The position numbers and the translations under genes are program-made. Under the pieces are notes generated by a model. It was not told where the DNA came from. It ran no database searches and was given only the letters and a program-made list of their open reading frames with translations. Positions 6,029 to 22,123 of a stretch of 22,123 nucleotides of DNA are shown here, in pieces; the stretch's first letter is position 1; every line of letters begins with the position of its first letter. This DNA is from a virus, in the IMG/VR virus record IMGVR_UViG_3300047477_000047, positions 1 through 22,123 of that record. One strand, 5' to 3'.

Positions 6029-6493
6029 ATGGCATTTAGAGAAAAGTTTCGCTTGTTTGTATCAGAAACTAAAGTGATTGAGCCTGAAATTAAAATAGAG
6101 CTTTCAGACCTAGCTAAGCCGGAAGCTAAAATGGAGGAATCTTGTGAGTCTAAAATTGAAACACACCAGGAGACCAAACCCAAGGAAGCCGAGAAGGTTG
6201 AGATTCCTGTCATTAACGAAAAGGAAGAGTTCGCGTCGTTAGACCTTTCTAAGGACGATATCCTTTCTTTGAAGCGTTTGGCATTTGCTGATATCCTTCA
6301 AGAAGAGATTACTATTTCTGAGTTGGTCGATCTTGTCCTTTTGGCAAAGTCTAATAAGGAAATCAAATCAAAAAACAGAGACTCTTTGTACATCAGAGAG
6401 TATGTTGATACTAAGGGCAAGATAACTACTAAGGGTAAAGTCTACCTTGAAGAAGATACTACAAAAACAAGACTAAGGGATATATTACAGTGA
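6029..6493 (+). CDS. Unrecognised Lys/Glu-rich protein, 154 residues
   Basis: I do not recognise this family. It starts at an ATG after an AAAGGG site. The first ~75 residues are low-complexity and rich in Lys, Glu and Pro, so probably extended or disordered. Residues ~78-110 look helical (DLSKDDILSLKRLAFADILQ and following), and the last ~45 residues are basic and compact (KGKITTKGKVYLEED). No signal peptide or membrane segment is visible. It is the first gene of the plus-strand operon and overlaps the next gene by 4 nt (GTGA), so the two are probably translationally coupled. Its neighbours are virion proteins, so a structural or assembly-accessory role is plausible but is inference only. 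Confidence 0.75.
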   Translation: MAFREKFRLFVSETKVIEPEIKIELSDLAKPEAKMEESCESKIETHQETKPKEAEKVEIPVINEKEEFASLDLSKDDILSLKRLAFADILQEEITISELVDLVLLAKSNKEIKSKNRDSLYIREYVDTKGKITTKGKVYLEEDTTKTRLRDILQ

Positions 6494-14527: not shown

Positions 14528-15354
14528 TATTGTTCCTCGTATATTATAACTGTTTCTAATGATTCAGGACTACCGACAACACTGTTGATCTTTAAGACCA
14601 CATAGTTATCGACTGGAATATTTGTGACGGCTAATGTAAACACGTCTCCAGTAGTAGTGCTTGTAACTGATTGTGTAGATATTTCAGTAGTTGTTCCAGA
14701 CATATCTCTATTAGGACTGTATGATACTGTTACATTTATAGTACCAGTACCGTTGATTACAGACTTTATTAAAAGCAATGATGTTGGCTTTGATGTGTAC
14801 AAGAGTGTGTAATCCATATCAGCTATTGGACTACCTATTGTCAAAATCTTATTATACTTTTGAGTGGTCTTATTCTCATTAAAGTTTAAGTGGAGATAAG
14901 TACCATCGTAGATTCCAACGCTTTGTTCAATTCCAGTATATGCTGAAGTTAAAGCATTTGCTGATGTTGAGAGGTATACTCGACCTCTGGTCAAGTTCTC
15001 AACTTTCCAAGATCCTTTCTGAGTCAAGTAAAGATCATCACCAACGACATCAAATACAAAGTGTGTTGCGTTTGAAGTGTTGGCTACAGATGATGCAGCA
15101 CTTGTGTAGAAGCCAGCATCATTCAATCTAATGACACTGTCTTTTATTATGGTATGTCCTGGAACTGTGATCTTAACATTAGTCCCATTACCAATGATAG
15201 ATGGTATCCTTTTAGGCGAACCAAATTCAGTACTGTCAGCTTCTTTGAAATAGAAGGACTGATCTTCTTTACACCATCCAAGCATTCTTTCTTTTATGGT
15301 GGATATCAATGTCGAGATTAAAGACGCTTGATACTGTTTAACTATTATTTTCAT
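14527..15354 (-). CDS. Unrecognised virion-associated protein with Ig/FnIII-like end, 275 residues
   Basis: The ATG overlaps the gp15 stop as ATGA (4 nt), so it is probably coupled to gp15. Residues 1-45 are amphipathic and basic-acidic (LISTLISTIKERMLGWCKED), residues ~50-165 are beta-type (VKITVPGHTIIKDSVIRLND, GRVYLSTSANALTS), and residues ~185-275 look like an Ig or fibronectin-III-type sandwich (TINVTVSYSPNRDMSG, VDNYVVLKINSVVGS). There is no signal peptide or long hydrophobic segment. It could be a tail-tube, baseplate or fibre-adaptor component. I do not recognise the family. Confidence 0.72.
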   Translation of the reverse strand: MKIIVKQYQASLISTLISTIKERMLGWCKEDQSFYFKEADSTEFGSPKRIPSIIGNGTNVKITVPGHTIIKDSVIRLNDAGFYTSAASSVANTSNATHFVFDVVGDDLYLTQKGSWKVENLTRGRVYLSTSANALTSAYTGIEQSVGIYDGTYLHLNFNENKTTQKYNKILTIGSPIADMDYTLLYTSKPTSLLLIKSVINGTGTINVTVSYSPNRDMSGTTTEISTQSVTSTTTGDVFTLAVTNIPVDNYVVLKINSVVGSPESLETVIIYEEQ

Positions 15355-16319
15355 AGGTTATCCGCATAGGTTCCGTCAATAAAGACATATTCATTAATAT
15401 TTATGGATTCTTCCCCACTGTCTGGGAACTCACCACGACCACCATTTATGTCGCTAATAGGTTGCGATTCAATAAAGAAGAAGTTGGATATATCGGAAAC
15501 ATTATTTCCACCATCCCAAGTTCCATCATTAGGCACTATAACAGTATCTTCAACCTTAGTATAATCTGTAGTTGTAGAATCGTGTTCAGTCTTGTATGAG
15601 AAATCTGTTGGAGGTGCTTCGTTGTTAGGAACAGCACTTGTTGTAAATGTCTCAGCATTAATTCTGTCATAGATGTAACTGGTCTTTATGTACTTGATAA
15701 CCTTAGCATAATCTATTGGTCTGTACATATAGCCGTGAACATTTAGATTGATTGTTGAATTGAAATATCTGGACTCTTCCTCACCCATCTCTTTAGGATA
15801 ATCCATATTTGTACCTTCGAGATACACTGCAAGATTTCTTTCCAGGTTAAGGAACTCAAACTCTTTAACTCTTAGGTGATTTGATGGATTGAAGAATGGA
15901 AGAATATTTTCAAGAATCTGGAACAAGTGATCCATAGATTCTGTTCGTATCTCTAAGGAGTATGAATAGTTGTATGGCGCAGGTTGAACATCTGACCAGA
16001 AATCATCAATCGTGTTTATGTTAACTGCTGGATTGTAAAATGATCTTAATTCATTAACAGATGTCGAGCGTGATGAATCATAAGTTATATTGTCCAGCGT
16101 CATCAACATGGATGGAATCTTAGGATAATATTTCTTACCAGATTTCAACTGAGTATCAAACAAGTGATATTTCTCACTAGGTCCATACTTCAAAGGTACG
16201 TCGATAACAGATACAGGTGTTCCAGCATTGTTGTAATTATAGACCTGTATCTTATTGAAGAGATCAAGCAACGCTACAAGAACCCCTCTGGATGATCGTG
16301 GATAATAAAATTGTTGCAT
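15351..16319 (-). CDS. 15: Tail completion / sheath stabiliser protein, gp15-like
   Basis: Resembles T4 gp15, which forms a hexameric ring at the top of the finished contractile tail, stabilises the sheath and provides the joint to the head's neck. The diagnostic stretch is SLEIRTESMDHLFQILENIL followed by PFFNP, comparable to the T4 pattern L-x-I-x-T-x-x-x-D-x-x-F-Q-I-x-E-x-I-L-P-Y-F-x-P. The N terminus (MQQFYYPRSSRGVLVALLDL) also matches the T4 plan of an aromatic start, an amphipathic helix and then VPLKYGPSEKY. LNVHGYMYRPIDYAK near residue 205 corresponds to the conserved NGWMYPP region. At 322 residues it is longer than T4 gp15 (about 270), the excess being an acidic C-terminal tail. The start overlaps the DUF1353 stop by one base. 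Confidence 0.88.
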   Translation of the reverse strand: MQQFYYPRSSRGVLVALLDLFNKIQVYNYNNAGTPVSVIDVPLKYGPSEKYHLFDTQLKSGKKYYPKIPSMLMTLDNITYDSSRSTSVNELRSFYNPAVNINTIDDFWSDVQPAPYNYSYSLEIRTESMDHLFQILENILPFFNPSNHLRVKEFEFLNLERNLAVYLEGTNMDYPKEMGEEESRYFNSTINLNVHGYMYRPIDYAKVIKYIKTSYIYDRINAETFTTSAVPNNEAPPTDFSYKTEHDSTTTDYTKVEDTVIVPNDGTWDGGNNVSDISNFFFIESQPISDINGGRGEFPDSGEESININEYVFIDGTYADNL

Positions 16320-16735
16320 TACTTCATCATCCCTCTATAATGATCTCTCGTCTCTCTACAATCTTCCCAGGCGTCTCCAGCGAAGAGTCTGACTGCCCAG
16401 TAGATTGTATATCGTTTGAAATAAGAAACGCCAGCATCTTTCATAGCTCTGAGGAATATATTATCACACTCAGTTTTTGAGAATAACATAGTGGCGTACA
16501 ACCAGTCATGTATAAGTGCTGCTGCATCATACGTCCCAACCTTTGGAACTAAGCTTTGAACTGATTCTGGAATGCTTGCCAAGTCAGAATCAAAATCTTT
16601 TGGGGCTGTAACATAACCATTTACATTATCGCAGTACATGAAAGGTTGTGTTAAAATTATCTTAAACTTATGAGCAGATAGTGATACATCAGTATAAACT
16701 AATGGGTATGGAAATGCTGTATAATTAGTCATCAT
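16319..16735 (-). CDS. DUF1353 family phage protein
   Basis: About 138 residues. The pattern VTAPKDFDSDLASIPESV, then AAALIHDWLY, then SKTECDNIFLRAMKDAGVS and YWAVRLFAGDAW is that of DUF1353, a small family common in tailed phages and prophages with no settled function. The conserved acidic and His residues (D-x-A-S-I-P, I-H-D-W-L-Y) suggest a metal or catalytic site, but none is proven. The start is within ATGATG; I use 16735, while 16732 is equally near the AAAGGTG site. A TTG at 16738 in the same frame is less likely. The gene overlaps the preceding gene by about 11 nt and the gp15 gene by one base. Confidence 0.82.
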   Translation of the reverse strand: MMTNYTAFPYPLVYTDVSLSAHKFKIILTQPFMYCDNVNGYVTAPKDFDSDLASIPESVQSLVPKVGTYDAAALIHDWLYATMLFSKTECDNIFLRAMKDAGVSYFKRYTIYWAVRLFAGDAWEDCRETRDHYRGMMK

Positions 16736-17099
16736 CAATCACCTTTAACAATGTGTAGTAATTTGGTATTGTAACCAAGTGGTCGCGTGCTATAATCTCA
16801 GCAAGCTTCTTATCTTTAGTATGCTCCATTTCGTGAGCAATGCCCATCTTCAATTGCTTGGCGTTAACTTCAGTAGCGCGGATTTTCGTCTTACGGTAAA
16901 TCATGTCTTGAAGTATCTCAGTTAGGATCTCGACCATCTCTTCAAAGGTCTTTCCTTCGCGCTTGGCTATGTCTTTAAGCTCTTTGTTTGTTACGGTCTT
17001 ATCTCTATTGAACCTATCAATGAGCTTGACTTTTAGGCGGGCTGGAACGACTTTGTGCTTGCGTGATTCATTCAGCTCGATGTATTCGGATAAGTTCAT
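16725..17099 (-). CDS. DUF5661-like small protein with capsid-targeting-like N terminus
   Basis: 124 residues. The C-terminal half (KMGIAHEMEHTKDKKLAEII, then ARDHLVTIPNYYTLL) matches the pattern G...E.EHT.D...A..IA.DHL...P.YY..L that I associate with DUF5661, found in phages and of unknown function. The conserved E-H and D-H pairs look like metal ligands, and here HEMEH also fits the HExxH zincin pattern. Residues ~25-65 form a basic helical region (RLKVKLIDRFNRDKTVTNKE). The first 12 residues, MNLSEYIELNES, resemble the start of the 18773 protein (MKKFSEYLNEQ) and the T4 internal-protein signal. The start overlaps the gp14 stop by 4 nt (ATGA) and has a GGAG site. A head-packaged or head-assembly protein is possible. 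Confidence 0.8.
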   Translation of the reverse strand: MNLSEYIELNESRKHKVVPARLKVKLIDRFNRDKTVTNKELKDIAKREGKTFEEMVEILTEILQDMIYRKTKIRATEVNAKQLKMGIAHEMEHTKDKKLAEIIARDHLVTIPNYYTLLKVIDDD

Positions 17100-17902
17100 T
17101 TGTCACTCCACCAGTTGTTGAATGGATCTTTTGGAGGACATTCCTTAGATCCGTCATATTCGATTTCTTCTTTATTAGTATGAGCATCTGAAGTAGTATT
17201 GATAAACTTACCAATATCAAACATATCTGTTTTATTGGTATACTTCCACATATCACCAAACATATCTTGAGTGTTACTTCCATCACCGGATGTTCCAGCG
17301 ATTGGTATACTCTTATCTCTATGTGTTCTTACAATCAGATCCCAAGCGTGCTGACCTTGGAGGAACTGTTCGGTTTGCTGTTTAACCATTACTATTTCAT
17401 AATAGGTATTATTAAACGCAGCACTTCTCAGTATATCATTTGGACTTGGAGTATCCGTGTCAAGTCTTGTATTTCTTGTAGGATCTTTAAGTTCATTGTA
17501 TGAAAGTCTTAGGATATCTCCAGCACGTGGTTGATATGTTTCTTCAGACATTATTCCATTCTTAAACTTACTGGCTTTTGTAAAATGTCTCTTGGATGCG
17601 TAGATGTGAAAGATGTCATTCCATCCCATACCCATTGTAGAGAAGTTTCTTATATCTCTTGGGAGTTCCAGATATGCCATGAAGTCGAAAGCTCTTAATA
17701 TCTGTCGGTCATTATCTTCACCAAAGATTCTGTCTTTATCAACATCATAGGAGACTACACTGTAAGTTAGCGATACTCCGTGAAAGTTAAATGCTTCTGT
17801 TAATAGCAAATCATATAACTTCCTTTCATTGTCATAGATAGGATTCAAGTGGTTGAAGAAACCTGTGTTTTGTAATCTGTTAAATCCTGAGAAGTTAGAC
17901 AT
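17096..17902 (-). CDS. 14: Neck protein, gp14-like
   Basis: Resembles T4 gp14, which with gp13 completes the head after DNA packaging and forms the neck to which the tail joins. The N-terminal region (FFNHLNPIYDNERKLYDLLL, TEAFNFHGVSLTY) and the later IFGEDNDRQ correspond to the family order: helical start, L...L..EA....G......, then a (Y/F)GED motif. I use the ATG at 17902 (268 residues). The frame is open to a GTG at 17935, but that codon lies in the loop of a terminator. The ATG lacks a well-spaced ribosome site and is only 5 nt after a late-type box. The protein ends with a Ser/Asp/Lys-rich tail and PFNNWWSDK. It heads an operon running to 11146. Confidence 0.82.
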   Translation of the reverse strand: MSNFSGFNRLQNTGFFNHLNPIYDNERKLYDLLLTEAFNFHGVSLTYSVVSYDVDKDRIFGEDNDRQILRAFDFMAYLELPRDIRNFSTMGMGWNDIFHIYASKRHFTKASKFKNGIMSEETYQPRAGDILRLSYNELKDPTRNTRLDTDTPSPNDILRSAAFNNTYYEIVMVKQQTEQFLQGQHAWDLIVRTHRDKSIPIAGTSGDGSNTQDMFGDMWKYTNKTDMFDIGKFINTTSDAHTNKEEIEYDGSKECPPKDPFNNWWSDK

Positions 17903-17907
17903 AAAAT

Positions 17908-17915
17908 TATTTATC
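17908..17915 (-). promoter_or_regulatory. T4-type late promoter box GATAAATA for the gp14 operon
   Basis: The minus strand reads GATAAATA directly between the terminator at 17921-17947 and the gp14 ATG. It is only 5 nt from the ATG, so with T4 spacing the transcript would begin at or near the start codon. Confidence 0.5.
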
Positions 17916-17920
17916 CCAAT

Positions 17921-17947
17921 AAAAAAGAGGCTCACGCCTCTTTTTTT
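17921..17947 (-). terminator. Rho-independent terminator after the acidic protein gene
   Basis: Stem GAGGC/GCCTC (17927-17931 and 17936-17940) has a 4-nt loop and is extended by paired A and T runs on both sides. It begins inside the stop codon of the 18773-17946 gene. A T-run follows on both strands, so it could work in either direction. Confidence 0.85.
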
Positions 17948-18773
17948 AAACTTCTGTCTTTATCCAAAGGTGCGCTGGATCATTGTGGTCATTGAAGGTG
18001 TAAAGTGTAACCCTCTGACCAGCTTTAAGTGCTTCCAACTTTTTCTTCATATCTCTTGGAGATCTGAATGATTTTAACTCACCAGTAGCAAGAGCAGCTT
18101 CTCTTGTTTCGGCTTCAAAAATCTTCAACTCTTTCAAGTCTGTCAATCCAATGAATCCAGAGATAGGCTCACCATCAATCTCTTCAGTTACGACAACTAC
18201 TACTTTAGTAGAACCGGCTTTCTCGGAAGCATCTTTAGAAGCTTCTTTTCTAACCTCATTGTCGAGCTTGTCAACATTCTTTTTCTCTACAGACTTAACT
18301 GCATCATCGTCTGGAATTTCATCATCAGACACAATTCGGTCATCATCTCCAGCTTTAGGTGTTTCCCTTTCGTCTGGAGCTTCTTTCTTCTCAGCCATTT
18401 TGATACCGATAGATTTTTCCCATGCTTCACGGTCTTCATCTGTAGCAGTACATGCTGTGAGATATTCTGTCAAATCTGGATCATCTTGTCCAACAAGGGT
18501 TAAGAACTTCATAATAGCTTGAGCTTCTTCCGAAGAGAAGTATGATTTTTCAGTAGCGGATGCTGCAAGAGCTTTCTTCAGAAGCTTAATCAATCTTGGA
18601 GTTCCAGCACTTGCGATTTCTTTCTTGTCTTCGCCTTCTGCAGCGTTTCTTACTTCGGATGCAATCTTACGGTACGTCACCAGTACATCTTTATGGATAT
18701 CGTCAAATCCTTCCACCAAGAGATCACCCTTCAGTAGATTCTGCTCATTAAGGTATTCACTAAACTTCTTCAT
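17946..18773 (-). CDS. Acidic head-associated protein with capsid-targeting-like N terminus, 275 residues
   Basis: ATG start with CGGAGAA upstream. I do not recognise the family. Residues 1-11, MKKFSEYLNEQ, resemble the T4 internal-protein signal MKTYQEFIAE and contain LNE, which fits the gp21 protease pattern (Leu/Ile-x-Glu). Residues ~20-125 are helical, residues ~128-190 are highly charged and acidic (GDDDRIVSDDEIPDDDAVKS), and residues ~190-275 form a mixed alpha/beta domain (TKVVVVVTEEIDGEPISGFI, then FRSPRDMKKKLEALKAGQR). It lies between gp13 and gp14, has its own box and ends at a terminator. It could be an internal head protein injected with the DNA, or a neck accessory. The role is inferred only from the N terminus and context. 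Confidence 0.8.
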   Translation of the reverse strand: MKKFSEYLNEQNLLKGDLLVEGFDDIHKDVLVTYRKIASEVRNAAEGEDKKEIASAGTPRLIKLLKKALAASATEKSYFSSEEAQAIMKFLTLVGQDDPDLTEYLTACTATDEDREAWEKSIGIKMAEKKEAPDERETPKAGDDDRIVSDDEIPDDDAVKSVEKKNVDKLDNEVRKEASKDASEKAGSTKVVVVVTEEIDGEPISGFIGLTDLKELKIFEAETREAALATGELKSFRSPRDMKKKLEALKAGQRVTLYTFNDHNDPAHLWIKTEV

Positions 18774-18791: not shown

Positions 18792-18799
18792 TATTTATT
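18792..18799 (-). promoter_or_regulatory. T4-type late promoter box AATAAATA for the acidic protein gene
   Basis: The minus strand reads TAATAAATA, where the first TAA is the gp13 stop codon and the box is AATAAATA, 18 nt before the ATG at 18773. A T4-like start would leave the CGGAG ribosome site in the leader. Confidence 0.5.
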
Positions 18800-19559
18800 A
18801 TCCTATCATGAATATAGCTGGATCAGTTTCCATTCTGATAGCTTCAAGTGCTGCTGCTTCTTCTTCTTTAGCTGTGGCTATGATTTCAGAAGCATTAATA
18901 TTTCCGCCACCAGGGAGAGTCATTGAATACTTTCTTAGGATCTTGCCCCAAAGTATTTCAACTCTTGCTCTTGCCAATTTCTTCAGCAAGGAATTATTGT
19001 AAAGATTAAGTGCAGTCTCTTTTCTGTAGACAGTAATCATTGCAAGTGAATCTACATTTGGTGTTGGCCATATTCGGACAATAGAACTATTCGGATTGAA
19101 GTCGCAAGTATATTTCCTTGAAAAGTGATCTTCAATTTCTTTTAGATACACCATTGAAATATCATAATTACCCATCACCAGTGCTCCACCCATTCCAGCC
19201 GATCCACCACCACCACTTCCAGGGCCACCTGGATAATTTCCATTAACCCAATCATTGTATAGTAGGTTGTGCTGTGGTGTGAATAGATCATTTATTCCAT
19301 TGTTATTAAATGATAAGCTTATATCCAATATAGAATCAATCTCATCGCCAAGAGCGTAAGCACTCACACCTGCAGATAATGTAATTGTCATCACATCTCT
19401 ATAGGTAGCTTCTCCATAAGTGTATCTTTGGAAGTCTTGGATCGAATCTTCTATAATTTGATCAAACTGTTCATCAGCAACTTCTATATTAATTACTGGT
19501 TGACCTATTGTCACCTTTAGATAATTTCTAAATCCATCAAGTGTTACTATCTTAGCCAT
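18798..19559 (-). CDS. 13: Neck protein, gp13-like
   Basis: Resembles T4 gp13, a head completion protein at the portal-neck junction. The N terminus (FRNYLKVTIGQPVINIEVAD, then EQFDQIIEDSIQDFQRYTYGE) follows the family order L...LG.P.INVE....Q....I..AL....Y. The C terminus (WGKILRKYSMTLPGGGNINA, then SEIIATAKEEEAA and PAIFMIG) matches the T4 end, with its K/R...LPGG..I....I...A..E.E.L and final FxIxG. Residues ~108-124 are a Gly-rich loop (PGGPGSGGGGSAGMGG) where T4 gp13 has other insertion sequence. At 253 residues it is shorter than T4 gp13 (about 309). It starts 3 nt after the small AT-hook-like gene. Its stop forms part of the next box. Confidence 0.9.
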   Translation of the reverse strand: MAKIVTLDGFRNYLKVTIGQPVINIEVADEQFDQIIEDSIQDFQRYTYGEATYRDVMTITLSAGVSAYALGDEIDSILDISLSFNNNGINDLFTPQHNLLYNDWVNGNYPGGPGSGGGGSAGMGGALVMGNYDISMVYLKEIEDHFSRKYTCDFNPNSSIVRIWPTPNVDSLAMITVYRKETALNLYNNSLLKKLARARVEILWGKILRKYSMTLPGGGNINASEIIATAKEEEAAALEAIRMETDPAIFMIG

Positions 19560-19562
19560 TTA

Positions 19563-19841
19563 TTATCCCTTCTTTGGACGTCCTCTTCCGCGCTTAACTT
19601 CAAGGAGTTCCGCCGGAGTCTCGTCAATATACTCAGACTCTTCAATTGTCGGAACTGCTTCAATTACAAAAACATCAGACGTTGGTCTTGGTGCTTCGAG
19701 ATATACAGGTTCAAGCACAGAATCATATCTTGCTCCAATGTGTTCTGGAAGTTCACACAGTCCAGATGGATTTACAACTACAGCAAGACCTGATTCATTT
19801 ATTACTTGTATTGGATAAACTCGTGTATTTCTAAACAACAT
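19563..19841 (-). CDS. Small protein with C-terminal AT-hook-like motif, 92 residues
   Basis: I chose the ATG at 19841 because AAGAGGTAT is well placed before it; an in-frame TTG at 19865 has no ribosome site. Residues 1-55 look like a small beta domain (RVYPIQVINESGLAVVVNPS, LCELPEHIGARYD). Residues ~60-82 are acidic. The end, VKRGRGRPKKG, contains the AT-hook core RGRP in a basic context, a motif that binds the minor groove of AT-rich DNA in other proteins. It lies between the capsid protein and gp13, behind its own TATAAATA box and the capsid terminator. A DNA-contacting head or neck accessory is possible; a basic tail binding an acidic partner is the plainer alternative. The family is not recognised. 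Confidence 0.72.
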   Translation of the reverse strand: MLFRNTRVYPIQVINESGLAVVVNPSGLCELPEHIGARYDSVLEPVYLEAPRPTSDVFVIEAVPTIEESEYIDETPAELLEVKRGRGRPKKG

Positions 19842-19872
19842 ATTATACCTCTTAAATTGGTTCAATTACTTA

Positions 19873-19941: not shown

Positions 19942-21231
19942 TTAAGGAATGAGAGTGTTGAGGTTAGTAACGCGGATTGCGCGGTAGTAACGACCAGAAC
20001 CAAGCAAGCTGTCGGTGATAGCGTAACGGCTCATCACGCCGATGTTCACACCGAAGTCATCCGGACGAACTGCACGATTGAACAAGCCAGTGATGTACGG
20101 GGAGTAGATCAAGCCTGTATCAGAAGTGGTAGGACCCTTATAACCAACAAGTGCGTAGTCAGAAGTGGCGTATGCATCGCGATATACAGTGATGGTGCCA
20201 TTCAACTTACCAATCTCTGCAACTGCGGTGGAAGCATTCACGTCAGCGGTATTCTGGGTGAACTGCGGTCCTGCAGCCTGAAGAGCGGTAGCAACGCGTG
20301 GGGACACGATAACAAAGTTACCAGCGCCACGGAAGGTTGCGGTTGCGATTTCATTGGACTTGCCGATGATTGCATTGACAAGAGTAGCGAACTTCTCTTG
20401 TGACCAGCGACCGTCAGAAGCGGATGCGTCGAACAAGCTTGGGACTGCTCCACCGTTGCCAGTGTTAAGAGCGGCCTGCATCATGCGACCAAGGATTTCA
20501 CGATCCAATTCTGCTGCAACTTCGTAGTTGAGGATGTTAAGCATTTCGCGCTCAATCTCGATACCCTGCATAGCCTTTAGATCCTGAGCGGACTCAAGAG
20601 AGAAAGCTGCGCCAAGCTTACGAGTGTTAGCCTGAATAGCAATCTTGTCAAGGAACAACTTCATGTTTGGCATGGTAGTTCCGACCTTCCAGAGTTCTGC
20701 GGCGGAAGTTACGGCACCAGTTCCGAACTGACCAACAGTTGCAGAGCTTGTGAAGTCGTAAAGACCATTTACAGCGCCAGAAGTAAGTGCGGAACCTGCA
20801 TTGGAACCAGTGTAACCAGAGTACTGATTAAGAGCCTTGAAACCAGCTTCATAGATGTCAGATCCACCGTTGAAGGTAGAGCCAGGAGGAATGCCTGCAA
20901 CGTCATAAGCATAGCGAAGGGCGTAAGCAAGACCGACTGGGGAGTTAAGAGCCTGAACACCGATCACCTTGTGAGCGAATAGGTCAGGGAATACTCTACG
21001 AACGAGAGCAAGAGCGATAGGTGAGAACTTAGCGCCGTCACCAGAGTTGGAACCGAAGTTAATGGTTGTGGACTGATCTTCATTCAATTCACGAACGTCA
21101 AGACGCTCCTGATTTTCAAGAAGGACAGACATGGTCTGACGAAGGGACTCATCACCGATTGAAGCAACAGACAATTTGCCTGGCATCTGCATCCACTTAG
21201 AGTAAGCGGCTTTTCTATCAAATTTTTCCAT
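19942..21231 (-). CDS. 23: Major capsid protein, gp23-like
   Basis: 429 residues, the subunit of the head shell. KFSPIALALVRRVFPDLFAH then KVIGVQALNSPVGLAYALRY corresponds to the conserved T4 gp23 stretch (MVRRAIPNLIA..I.GVQPMNSPTG). RKLGAAFSLESAQDLKAMQG matches K-A-A-Y-S-I-E-L-A-Q-D-L-R-A-V-H-G, and VGYKGP plus GLIYSPYI match the C-terminal region. The N-terminal ~51 residues look like the propeptide removed by the prohead protease: LNE at residues 49-51 fits the Leu/Ile-x-Glu cleavage rule and would leave a mature chain of ~378. It is ~90 residues shorter than T4 gp23 (521), so an inserted domain may be smaller. An AAGGAG site precedes the ATG. Base composition is richer in G+C than the nearby fibre gene, consistent with high expression. 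Confidence 0.95.
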   Translation of the reverse strand: MEKFDRKAAYSKWMQMPGKLSVASIGDESLRQTMSVLLENQERLDVRELNEDQSTTINFGSNSGDGAKFSPIALALVRRVFPDLFAHKVIGVQALNSPVGLAYALRYAYDVAGIPPGSTFNGGSDIYEAGFKALNQYSGYTGSNAGSALTSGAVNGLYDFTSSATVGQFGTGAVTSAAELWKVGTTMPNMKLFLDKIAIQANTRKLGAAFSLESAQDLKAMQGIEIEREMLNILNYEVAAELDREILGRMMQAALNTGNGGAVPSLFDASASDGRWSQEKFATLVNAIIGKSNEIATATFRGAGNFVIVSPRVATALQAAGPQFTQNTADVNASTAVAEIGKLNGTITVYRDAYATSDYALVGYKGPTTSDTGLIYSPYITGLFNRAVRPDDFGVNIGVMSRYAITDSLLGSGRYYRAIRVTNLNTLIP

Positions 21232-21257: not shown

Positions 21258-21265
21258 TATTTATT
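21258..21265 (-). promoter_or_regulatory. T4-type late promoter box AATAAATA for the major capsid gene
   Basis: The minus strand reads TAATAAATA, where the first TAA is the scaffold stop codon, 26 nt before the capsid ATG. This allows capsid protein to be made in excess of scaffold. The motif and position match the box before the 18773 gene. Confidence 0.55.
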
Positions 21266-22123
21266 ACAGATAGTAATTAATTTTTTCCAGACGAATTTCG
21301 AGGTCATCTTTGACTGTTTCAGTCAATTCCTCTTTATTCTCTTCTTCATCTTCGGTCTCATCTTCGTTTAGGAACAGGTCATCATTGATTTCTGTTTCGT
21401 CCAACTCAAGAAGAGAATCCTTTTCCTCAAGAACTTCGATAAAGGTGTCAATCTTCTTGGCAACTTCAGAATAATTCTTTCCTTCAAACATTGCGCGAAC
21501 CTTAGCCTTAGCTGATTCAGTCAATCCTTCAGTCTTACGAGTAACAAGTAATGCAGTCTCAAGATTGTCAAGCTTCTCCTGAAGAGCTAGTTTAACAGTG
21601 TAGGACTCATTAAGCTTGCTGGTCATATCAGCAGCCTTTCTCTCTGCAGCGGCAACGATTTCCTGGGAGTCATTGTCAAGAGAGATGAAGTGGGATTCAA
21701 ACAAGGATTTGATTCCACCGATGATTGGCTTGAAGGTTTCGTTGATAGCAACGCTTTCCAAAAGAGAGTCAGAGATCTTGGTAGAGATTTCGATATCCAA
21801 GAAACGATCAAGATCACCGATAACGGTCTCTTCAAGCTTCTTGAGTTCGGCTTCGTACTCTTCATCAATCAACTGAAGCTTGGATTCAACAATTGCGGAG
21901 ACCTGCTCAGCGACATACTTCTCAGCATATCCTTCGATCTTCTCAACAGCTGCGGCCTTGAAACGCTCAGTCTTGTCAGCATAGTCAGCTTCCATCTTTT
22001 CGACAGCTTCGTTTAGACGGGAGACAATTTCTCTTTCAGTGAACTCTTCTGCAAGAGCCTCAATGCGAAGGGTCTCTTCAGATACAAGTGCTTCTGCACG
22101 GATCTTGGCCTTCTCATCAATCA
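21264..22123 (-). CDS. 22: Prohead core scaffold protein, gp22-like (5' end beyond the window)
   Basis: The frame stays open to the right edge, with about 285 residues visible; an internal ATG at 21995 is not the start. The protein is nearly all helical, rich in Glu, Lys and Ala, and predicted coiled coil. T4 gp22 is the main component of the prohead core that shapes the shell and is then cut up by the gp21 protease. IIGGIKSLFESHFISLDNDS then LNESYTVKLALQEKLDNLET and LTESAKAKVRAMFEGKNYSE correspond in order to T4 gp22 (LGGLKELFVEH, ELNKRD, LTESQKEKVSALVEGMDYSD). The last ~45 residues are very acidic (LDETEINDDLFLNEDETEDE). It lies directly upstream of the capsid gene, as gene 22 does in T4. 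Its stop is part of the capsid late box. Confidence 0.93.
   Translation of the reverse strand, partial: IDEKAKIRAEALVSEETLRIEALAEEFTEREIVSRLNEAVEKMEADYADKTERFKAAAVEKIEGYAEKYVAEQVSAIVESKLQLIDEEYEAELKKLEETVIGDLDRFLDIEISTKISDSLLESVAINETFKPIIGGIKSLFESHFISLDNDSQEIVAAAERKAADMTSKLNESYTVKLALQEKLDNLETALLVTRKTEGLTESAKAKVRAMFEGKNYSEVAKKIDTFIEVLEEKDSLLELDETEINDDLFLNEDETEDEEENKEELTETVKDDLEIRLEKINYYL

Follow-up and report, generated by a model that had tools for sequence, protein, structure and literature searches.

The concept of a capsid-targeting sequence (CTS) at the start of head-packaged proteins, and its use in T-even phages, is already known. Mutagenesis of the T4 CTS showed that targeting depends mainly on residues 4 and 7, and processing on residues 8 and 10 (PMC9026906). 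The T4 protease gp21 cleaves after L/I-x-E, and the first demonstration concerned a glutamyl-alanyl bond. The T4 internal proteins IP1-3 have only their N-terminal leader in common, and they block distinct type IV restriction enzymes (PMC12373910). The virion ADP-ribosyltransferase Alt of T4 is likewise packaged in the head, processed by gp21 and delivered together with the DNA. Such virion cargo is usually learned phage by phage with mass spectrometry.

A T4-like virion module with two candidate tagged proteins

The stretch of DNA analyzed here, referred to as the window, is a 22,123-base IMG/VR record from an uncultured bacterial virus of the T4-like type. A T4-like virion module (Table 1) lies on its minus strand, in the order gp22-like scaffold, gp23-like major capsid protein (MCP), a 100-aa protein, gp13-like adaptor, a 275-aa protein, gp14-like head closure, a DUF5661 protein, a DUF1353 protein and gp15. 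Both gp22 and gp23 are present, and the contig stops inside the scaffold gene, before gp21. The MCP is less than 60% identical to that of every annotated phage and 77–78% identical to those of two IMG/VR contigs, L008 and L009, the only sister contigs obtained in a search for related loci by MCP alignment. In these sisters, the place of the 100-aa, gp13-like and 275-aa genes is occupied by repetitive Cys-rich proteins that look zinc-finger-like by eye (L008:1591-3397 and L009:1600-3040), some of them with an HNH-like C-terminus, also by eye. Contig L009 additionally has, inserted before its DUF5661 gene, a fibre-like protein of 585 aa that includes a polysaccharide deacetylase domain (L009:3803-5560). 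In the window itself, the 100-aa protein located between MCP and the gp13-like adaptor (19563-19865, minus strand) contains many L/I-x-E sites and ends in the basic tail KRGRGRPKKG. Just past the 275-aa gene, at about 17915-17945 on the minus strand, an inverted repeat (AAAAAAGAGGC-GTGA-GCCTCTTTTTT) has by eye the look of an intrinsic terminator; a terminator scan of the window returned a different site, after the MCP gene (19913-19888).

Table 1. Features of the virion module and predicted tag and cleavage sites, in window coordinates.
Feature	Position	Strand	Basis
gp22-like scaffold, cut by contig end; three LNE, rich in L/I-x-E	21264..22121	-	PF25623 E=4.5e-16
gp23-like major capsid protein	19942..21231	-	PF07068 E=2.7e-83; phrog_138
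LNE at MCP residues 49-51, anticipated site of propeptide cleavage	21079..21087	-	alignment with T4 gp23
gp13-like head-tail adaptor Ad2, immediately preceding the 275-aa gene	18798..19559	-	phrog_211 E=1.5e-15
275-aa protein, predicted T4-type CTS, start MKKFSEYLNEQNLL	18773->17946	-	ORF, ATG start
Predicted CTS MKKFSEYLNE (residues 1-10), putative cut after Glu10	18744..18773	-	fits T4 IPIII positions
gp14-like head closure Hc2, between both tagged genes	17096..17902	-	phrog_679 E=8.9e-10; PF11649 E=2.9e-9
124-aa DUF5661 protein, predicted shifted CTS, start MNLSEYIELNESRKH	17099->16725	-	Pfam PF18905 E=6.6e-12
Predicted CTS variant MNLSEYIELNE (residues 1-11), putative cut after Glu11	17067..17099	-	sister conservation
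DUF5661 domain (residues 67-121)	16737..16901	-	Pfam
gp15-like tail sheath stabiliser, downstream	15351..16319	-	PF16724 E=2.4e-42

Two starts in the window compared with the T4 signal

The original prediction held that two proteins of this module open with similar peptides ending in LNE and resembling the signal MKTYQEFIAE of a T4 internal protein. Both ORFs begin as claimed, on the minus strand and with ATG, one with MKKFSEYLNE followed by Gln and the other with MNLSEYIELNE followed by Ser, and a GGAG-type ribosome-binding sequence precedes each of them, supporting the choice of start in both genes. The T4 signal is indeed present in the T4 record, where it opens IPIII and is followed by Ala. 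The start of the 275-aa protein and that of IPIII agree at all four functional positions in exact spacing: aromatic residues occupy both targeting positions (Phe4 and Tyr7), and Leu8 and Glu10 provide the L/I and the Glu of the processing positions. Lys2 and Glu6 are also common to the two. Judged by these residues, the 275-aa start is a strong candidate for a T4-type CTS, and it is the stronger of the two cases. The Gln after Glu10 is unusual, being found in 3 of 104 tagged proteins. Searches with the 275-aa protein gave no relative in PHROGs, annotated phages or IMG/VR and no Pfam match above the cut-off. AlphaFold2 models of the two proteins, with mean pLDDT of 63 and 53, were too poor for interpretation or searching; the low-confidence model of the 275-aa protein is helical over residues 25-121 and continues through a low-confidence linker into a strand-containing C-terminal part (190-275).

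In the second gene, the start overlaps the stop of the gp14-like gene lying upstream of it. The encoded protein had been labeled DUF5661-like, and it scores 46 bits against a Pfam cut-off of 27 for this family, whose Pfam entry gives no function. Its start is off the T4 register by one residue, with Leu3, Tyr6 and L-x-E at 9-11, and thus presents a shifted variant only of the arrangement at positions 4, 7, 8 and 10. Orthologs in the sister contigs (L008:4177-4530 and L009:5618-5971), at 34–35% identity, keep the start as MRFS[E/D]YTQLLLE followed by Ala, with S4, Y6 and L9 common to all three. A regex for the shifted form matched 8 of 2,759 gene starts versus 5 of 11,670 internal methionines, a small excess; the 8 genes that it marks in other T4-like records include one starting MNLKEYIIE and adjoining a gp23 gene. 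DUF5661 proteins elsewhere in phages are not always tag-initial. The cyanophages S-SRM01 and B23 share the domain with the window, but their copies lie in larger proteins near gp15/gp16, fused with DUF6321 and placed beside gp16. It could be argued, from the register shift, the small excess of the shifted form and homologs without a matching start, that only the 275-aa protein carries a true CTS and that the DUF5661 protein simply begins with an ordinary helix, specific to its lineage, in which SEY and LNE occur by chance. Such a reading has to contend with a start and L-x-E site conserved in 35%-identical orthologs, with the confinement of LNE in the window otherwise to head proteins, and with shifted tags on relatives of the virion protein GC190 (see below). 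We consider it doubtful, though worth keeping in mind, and see a moderate case that the DUF5661 start is a T4-type CTS in shifted form.

Propeptide cleavage had also been expected at an LNE at residues 49-51 of the MCP, and this tripeptide aligns with the T4 gp23 cleavage region, FLTE followed by Ala. The site is kept in the two sister phages and in a cyanophage. Of the proteins in the window, four from the head module (scaffold, MCP, 275-aa protein and DUF5661 protein; 1,113 aa) together contain six LNE, against none in the 6,124 other residues, and in 5,000 shuffles of these four proteins the count never exceeded four. Given that two proteins only are compared, and that the looser of our tag regexes was composed after the pair had been seen, the likeness of the two starts might be put down to chance. 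When the N-terminal 40 residues were shuffled in each of 20 window genes, however, the strict regex gave at least one match in 5 of 20,000 trials and the looser regex at least two matches in 7 of 20,000. Set beside the conservation among DUF5661 orthologs and the database-wide tag pattern, these figures make a coincidence very improbable. The likeness itself is confirmed by the ORFs, the shuffles and the concentration of LNE. Elsewhere in the window, a charged 154-aa protein (6029-6493, plus strand; start MAFREKFRLFVSE), for which a Pfam search gave no match, contains FxxFVxE, which resembles a CTS displaced by three residues in which L/I is replaced by V.

Tag-type starts across T4-like viruses

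A search for further starts of the SEY/QEF type had been proposed; extended beyond the window, it revealed many unrelated proteins opened in this way in T4-like viruses. A DNA pattern for MKxFxEYLNE was found in 88 IMG/VR stretches and the permuted motif MKxFxLNEYE in none. Among the 82 occurrences in 80 loci listed, about 74 (~90%, counted manually) mark the beginning of an ORF shortly after a stop, and those listed that do not are mostly EYFNE, which the YTN codon of the pattern permits. Of the records listed with 100 kb or more, ten carry an ORF-opening tag; nine of them encode Gp23, and the same nine encode the S77 protease. In 12 T4-like records, T4 included, the strict regex matched 38 of 2,406 gene starts versus 2 of 10,130 internal methionines (Fisher p=2e-25), where gene calls are naive longest ORFs, the records are often fragments and the regex was shaped by known examples. 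With the fetch motif left out, 29 starts versus 2 internal positions remained (p=4e-19). The strict form was used for this main count because variable-spacing regexes fitted more starts but also more internal positions. A looser nucleotide pattern built around the functional positions, in which only M1, K2, F/Y4, F/Y7, E10 and an NTN codon for residue 8 are fixed, matched in 9 of 11 named T4-like isolates, RB49 and S-PM2 being the two without a match, and gave 0 matches in SPO1, phiKZ, P1 and N4. In HTVC008M, one of the nine, the match is a 30-aa ORF; it was treated, like MKLFEEYFNE in another record, as chance or non-tag. The same pattern matched in 25 of 25 tag-bearing IMG/VR records and its reverse in none; as these records were found through the tag and were all selected for containing the seed motif, what is informative here is the difference between the pattern and its reverse. 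One IMG/VR record harbors three consecutive tagged genes (MKTFK[E/D]FLNE) between those for the S77 protease and the MCP (L139:5330-6504, G006).

In T4, the strict regex identified IPII, IPIII and the uncharacterised gp61.1. The last of these, annotated as hypothetical (NC_000866, 18966-19130, minus strand; L183), starts MKTFKEFIKE followed by Asp and is possibly a CTS protein that has gone unrecognised. IPI, IPII and IPIII resemble the tagged class in that the 10-residue M-K-x-[F/Y]-x-E-[F/Y]-[L/I]-x-E, with its gp21-type L/I-x-E cleavage site, opens otherwise unrelated late proteins. The window proteins differ from them in their unrelated bodies, in having their genes interleaved with neck genes and in the one-residue shift of the DUF5661 tag. 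Our literature search, conducted mostly outside subscription journals, found CTS in cyanophages or metagenomic phages undescribed beyond a general remark, and searching for the tag peptides by their letters returned no paper. The wide reach of the tag beyond T-even phages looks unreported in the literature searched.

Residue preferences were examined in tagged proteins that do not match the fetch motif (60 after removal of redundancy), selected with a pattern that leaves residues 6 and 11 free. Ala or Ser stood at residue 11 in 33 of them, where 8.5 would be expected (p=1.5e-13), and residue 6 was Glu, Gln or Asp in 54, against 9.8 expected. The preference for Ala/Ser, which recalls the Glu-Ala sites of gp21, would fit cleavage after the Glu. 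The codons of the tag vary synonymously (AAA/AAG, TTT/TTC, TAT/TAC, and 12 codons at residue 8). Genes commonly begin with A/T-rich early codons, and the shared start might on that ground reflect translation initiation or codon bias at the DNA level, with no peptide signal involved; free variation among synonyms and the absence of permuted or reversed motifs leave this idea hardly credible.

Tagged proteins and their proposed fate

The cyanophage S-SM1, whose virion proteome has been measured, yielded a single match among 225 naive genes, the putative cytidyltransferase GC190. Its start, MKKFSAFLNEA, matches with position 6 free and is missed by the strict regex. The main text of PMC3037559 places GC190 among the proteins newly detected in virions; its enzyme body is unrelated to the window proteins, and that main text does not report cleavage (PMC3037559). 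The GC190 homologs in Syn9, S-RS29, P-SSM2 and B23 can be aligned from residue 1 onward and retain a start of this kind, and the homolog in S-SRM01 retains one as well. In the copy of IMG/VR record G034, aligned from residue 2, the tag is shifted, and shifted tags on GC190 relatives are exemplified by MKFSQFITEA.

Overall, about a hundred proteins of related viruses, dissimilar to one another, carried the same kind of tag, which may for this reason mark proteins that are carried by, and possibly delivered from, the particle. The majority of 93 tagged proteins analyzed with Pfam are without a named domain. DUF6321, the domain joined to DUF5661 in the two cyanophages, is the commonest of those named (6 members), followed by AAA_33 and Zeta_toxin with 2 members each and DUF5872, S-AdoMet lyase, CTP_transf_like, DnaJ and GNAT with 1 each; an ART-PolyVal match fell below its cut-off. 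Candidate host-modifying or anti-restriction enzymes in the set would be the S-adenosylmethionine (SAM) lyase, zeta-toxin-like kinases, the DnaJ-domain and GNAT proteins and the weak ADP-ribosyltransferase match.

We consider it quite likely that both window proteins carry a T4-type CTS, are packaged, are cut by a gp21-type protease and are probably delivered. Matches at the T4 functional positions, conservation among DUF5661 orthologs and the concentration of LNE in head proteins support the CTS reading, as do the portability of the tag, Ala/Ser after the Glu and the head-gene neighborhood. The peptide would bind the scaffold core during prohead assembly and bring the attached protein inside, where a gp21-type (S77) prohead protease, presumably encoded outside the fragment, would cut after L-x-E (Glu10 and Glu11, respectively), a site of the same kind as those used on MCP and scaffold. 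The mature proteins would stay in the head after cleavage and probably enter the host with the DNA, where they might plausibly act early, against host defences or in modifying the host. For this phage, packaging and cleavage are what we infer from the sequences; injection and function in the host would lie a further step beyond. The scheme is that of T4 Alt, to which neither window protein showed a sequence relation.

The two proteins could instead be core- or scaffold-like structural components, the tag serving prohead entry and processing and the proteins not being delivered as effectors. T4 IPIII and gp67/gp68 have core roles, both tagged genes sit among neck genes, and the 275-aa protein is without a recognisable enzyme domain. 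Against this, ejection has been reported for T4 Alt and many internal proteins, the anti-restriction proteins IP1-3 are injected (PMC12373910), and tagged proteins elsewhere include enzymes that are unlikely as scaffold. A purely structural role appears unlikely to us. Returning to delivered cargo, early anti-defence roles are a fair guess on the grounds that IP1-3 block type IV restriction enzymes (PMC12373910).

More broadly, it seems reasonably likely that the T4-type packaging-and-cleavage tag is a general, portable address across Gp23/S77 phages, by which head cargo, including candidate host-modifying or anti-restriction enzymes, can be read from sequence. If so, testable lists of virion cargo could be drawn up for uncultured T4-like phages, the tag would point to early-acting anti-defence proteins like T4 IP1-3 (PMC12373910), and the virion-associated cytidyltransferase GC190 of cyanophages would gain a route into the head. 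One tagged protein from IMG/VR (L109:6344-7177, G017) starts with MKTFKQYLEE and matches S-adenosylmethionine lyase in Pfam at E=2.3e-9. SAM lyases are known phage anti-restriction enzymes.
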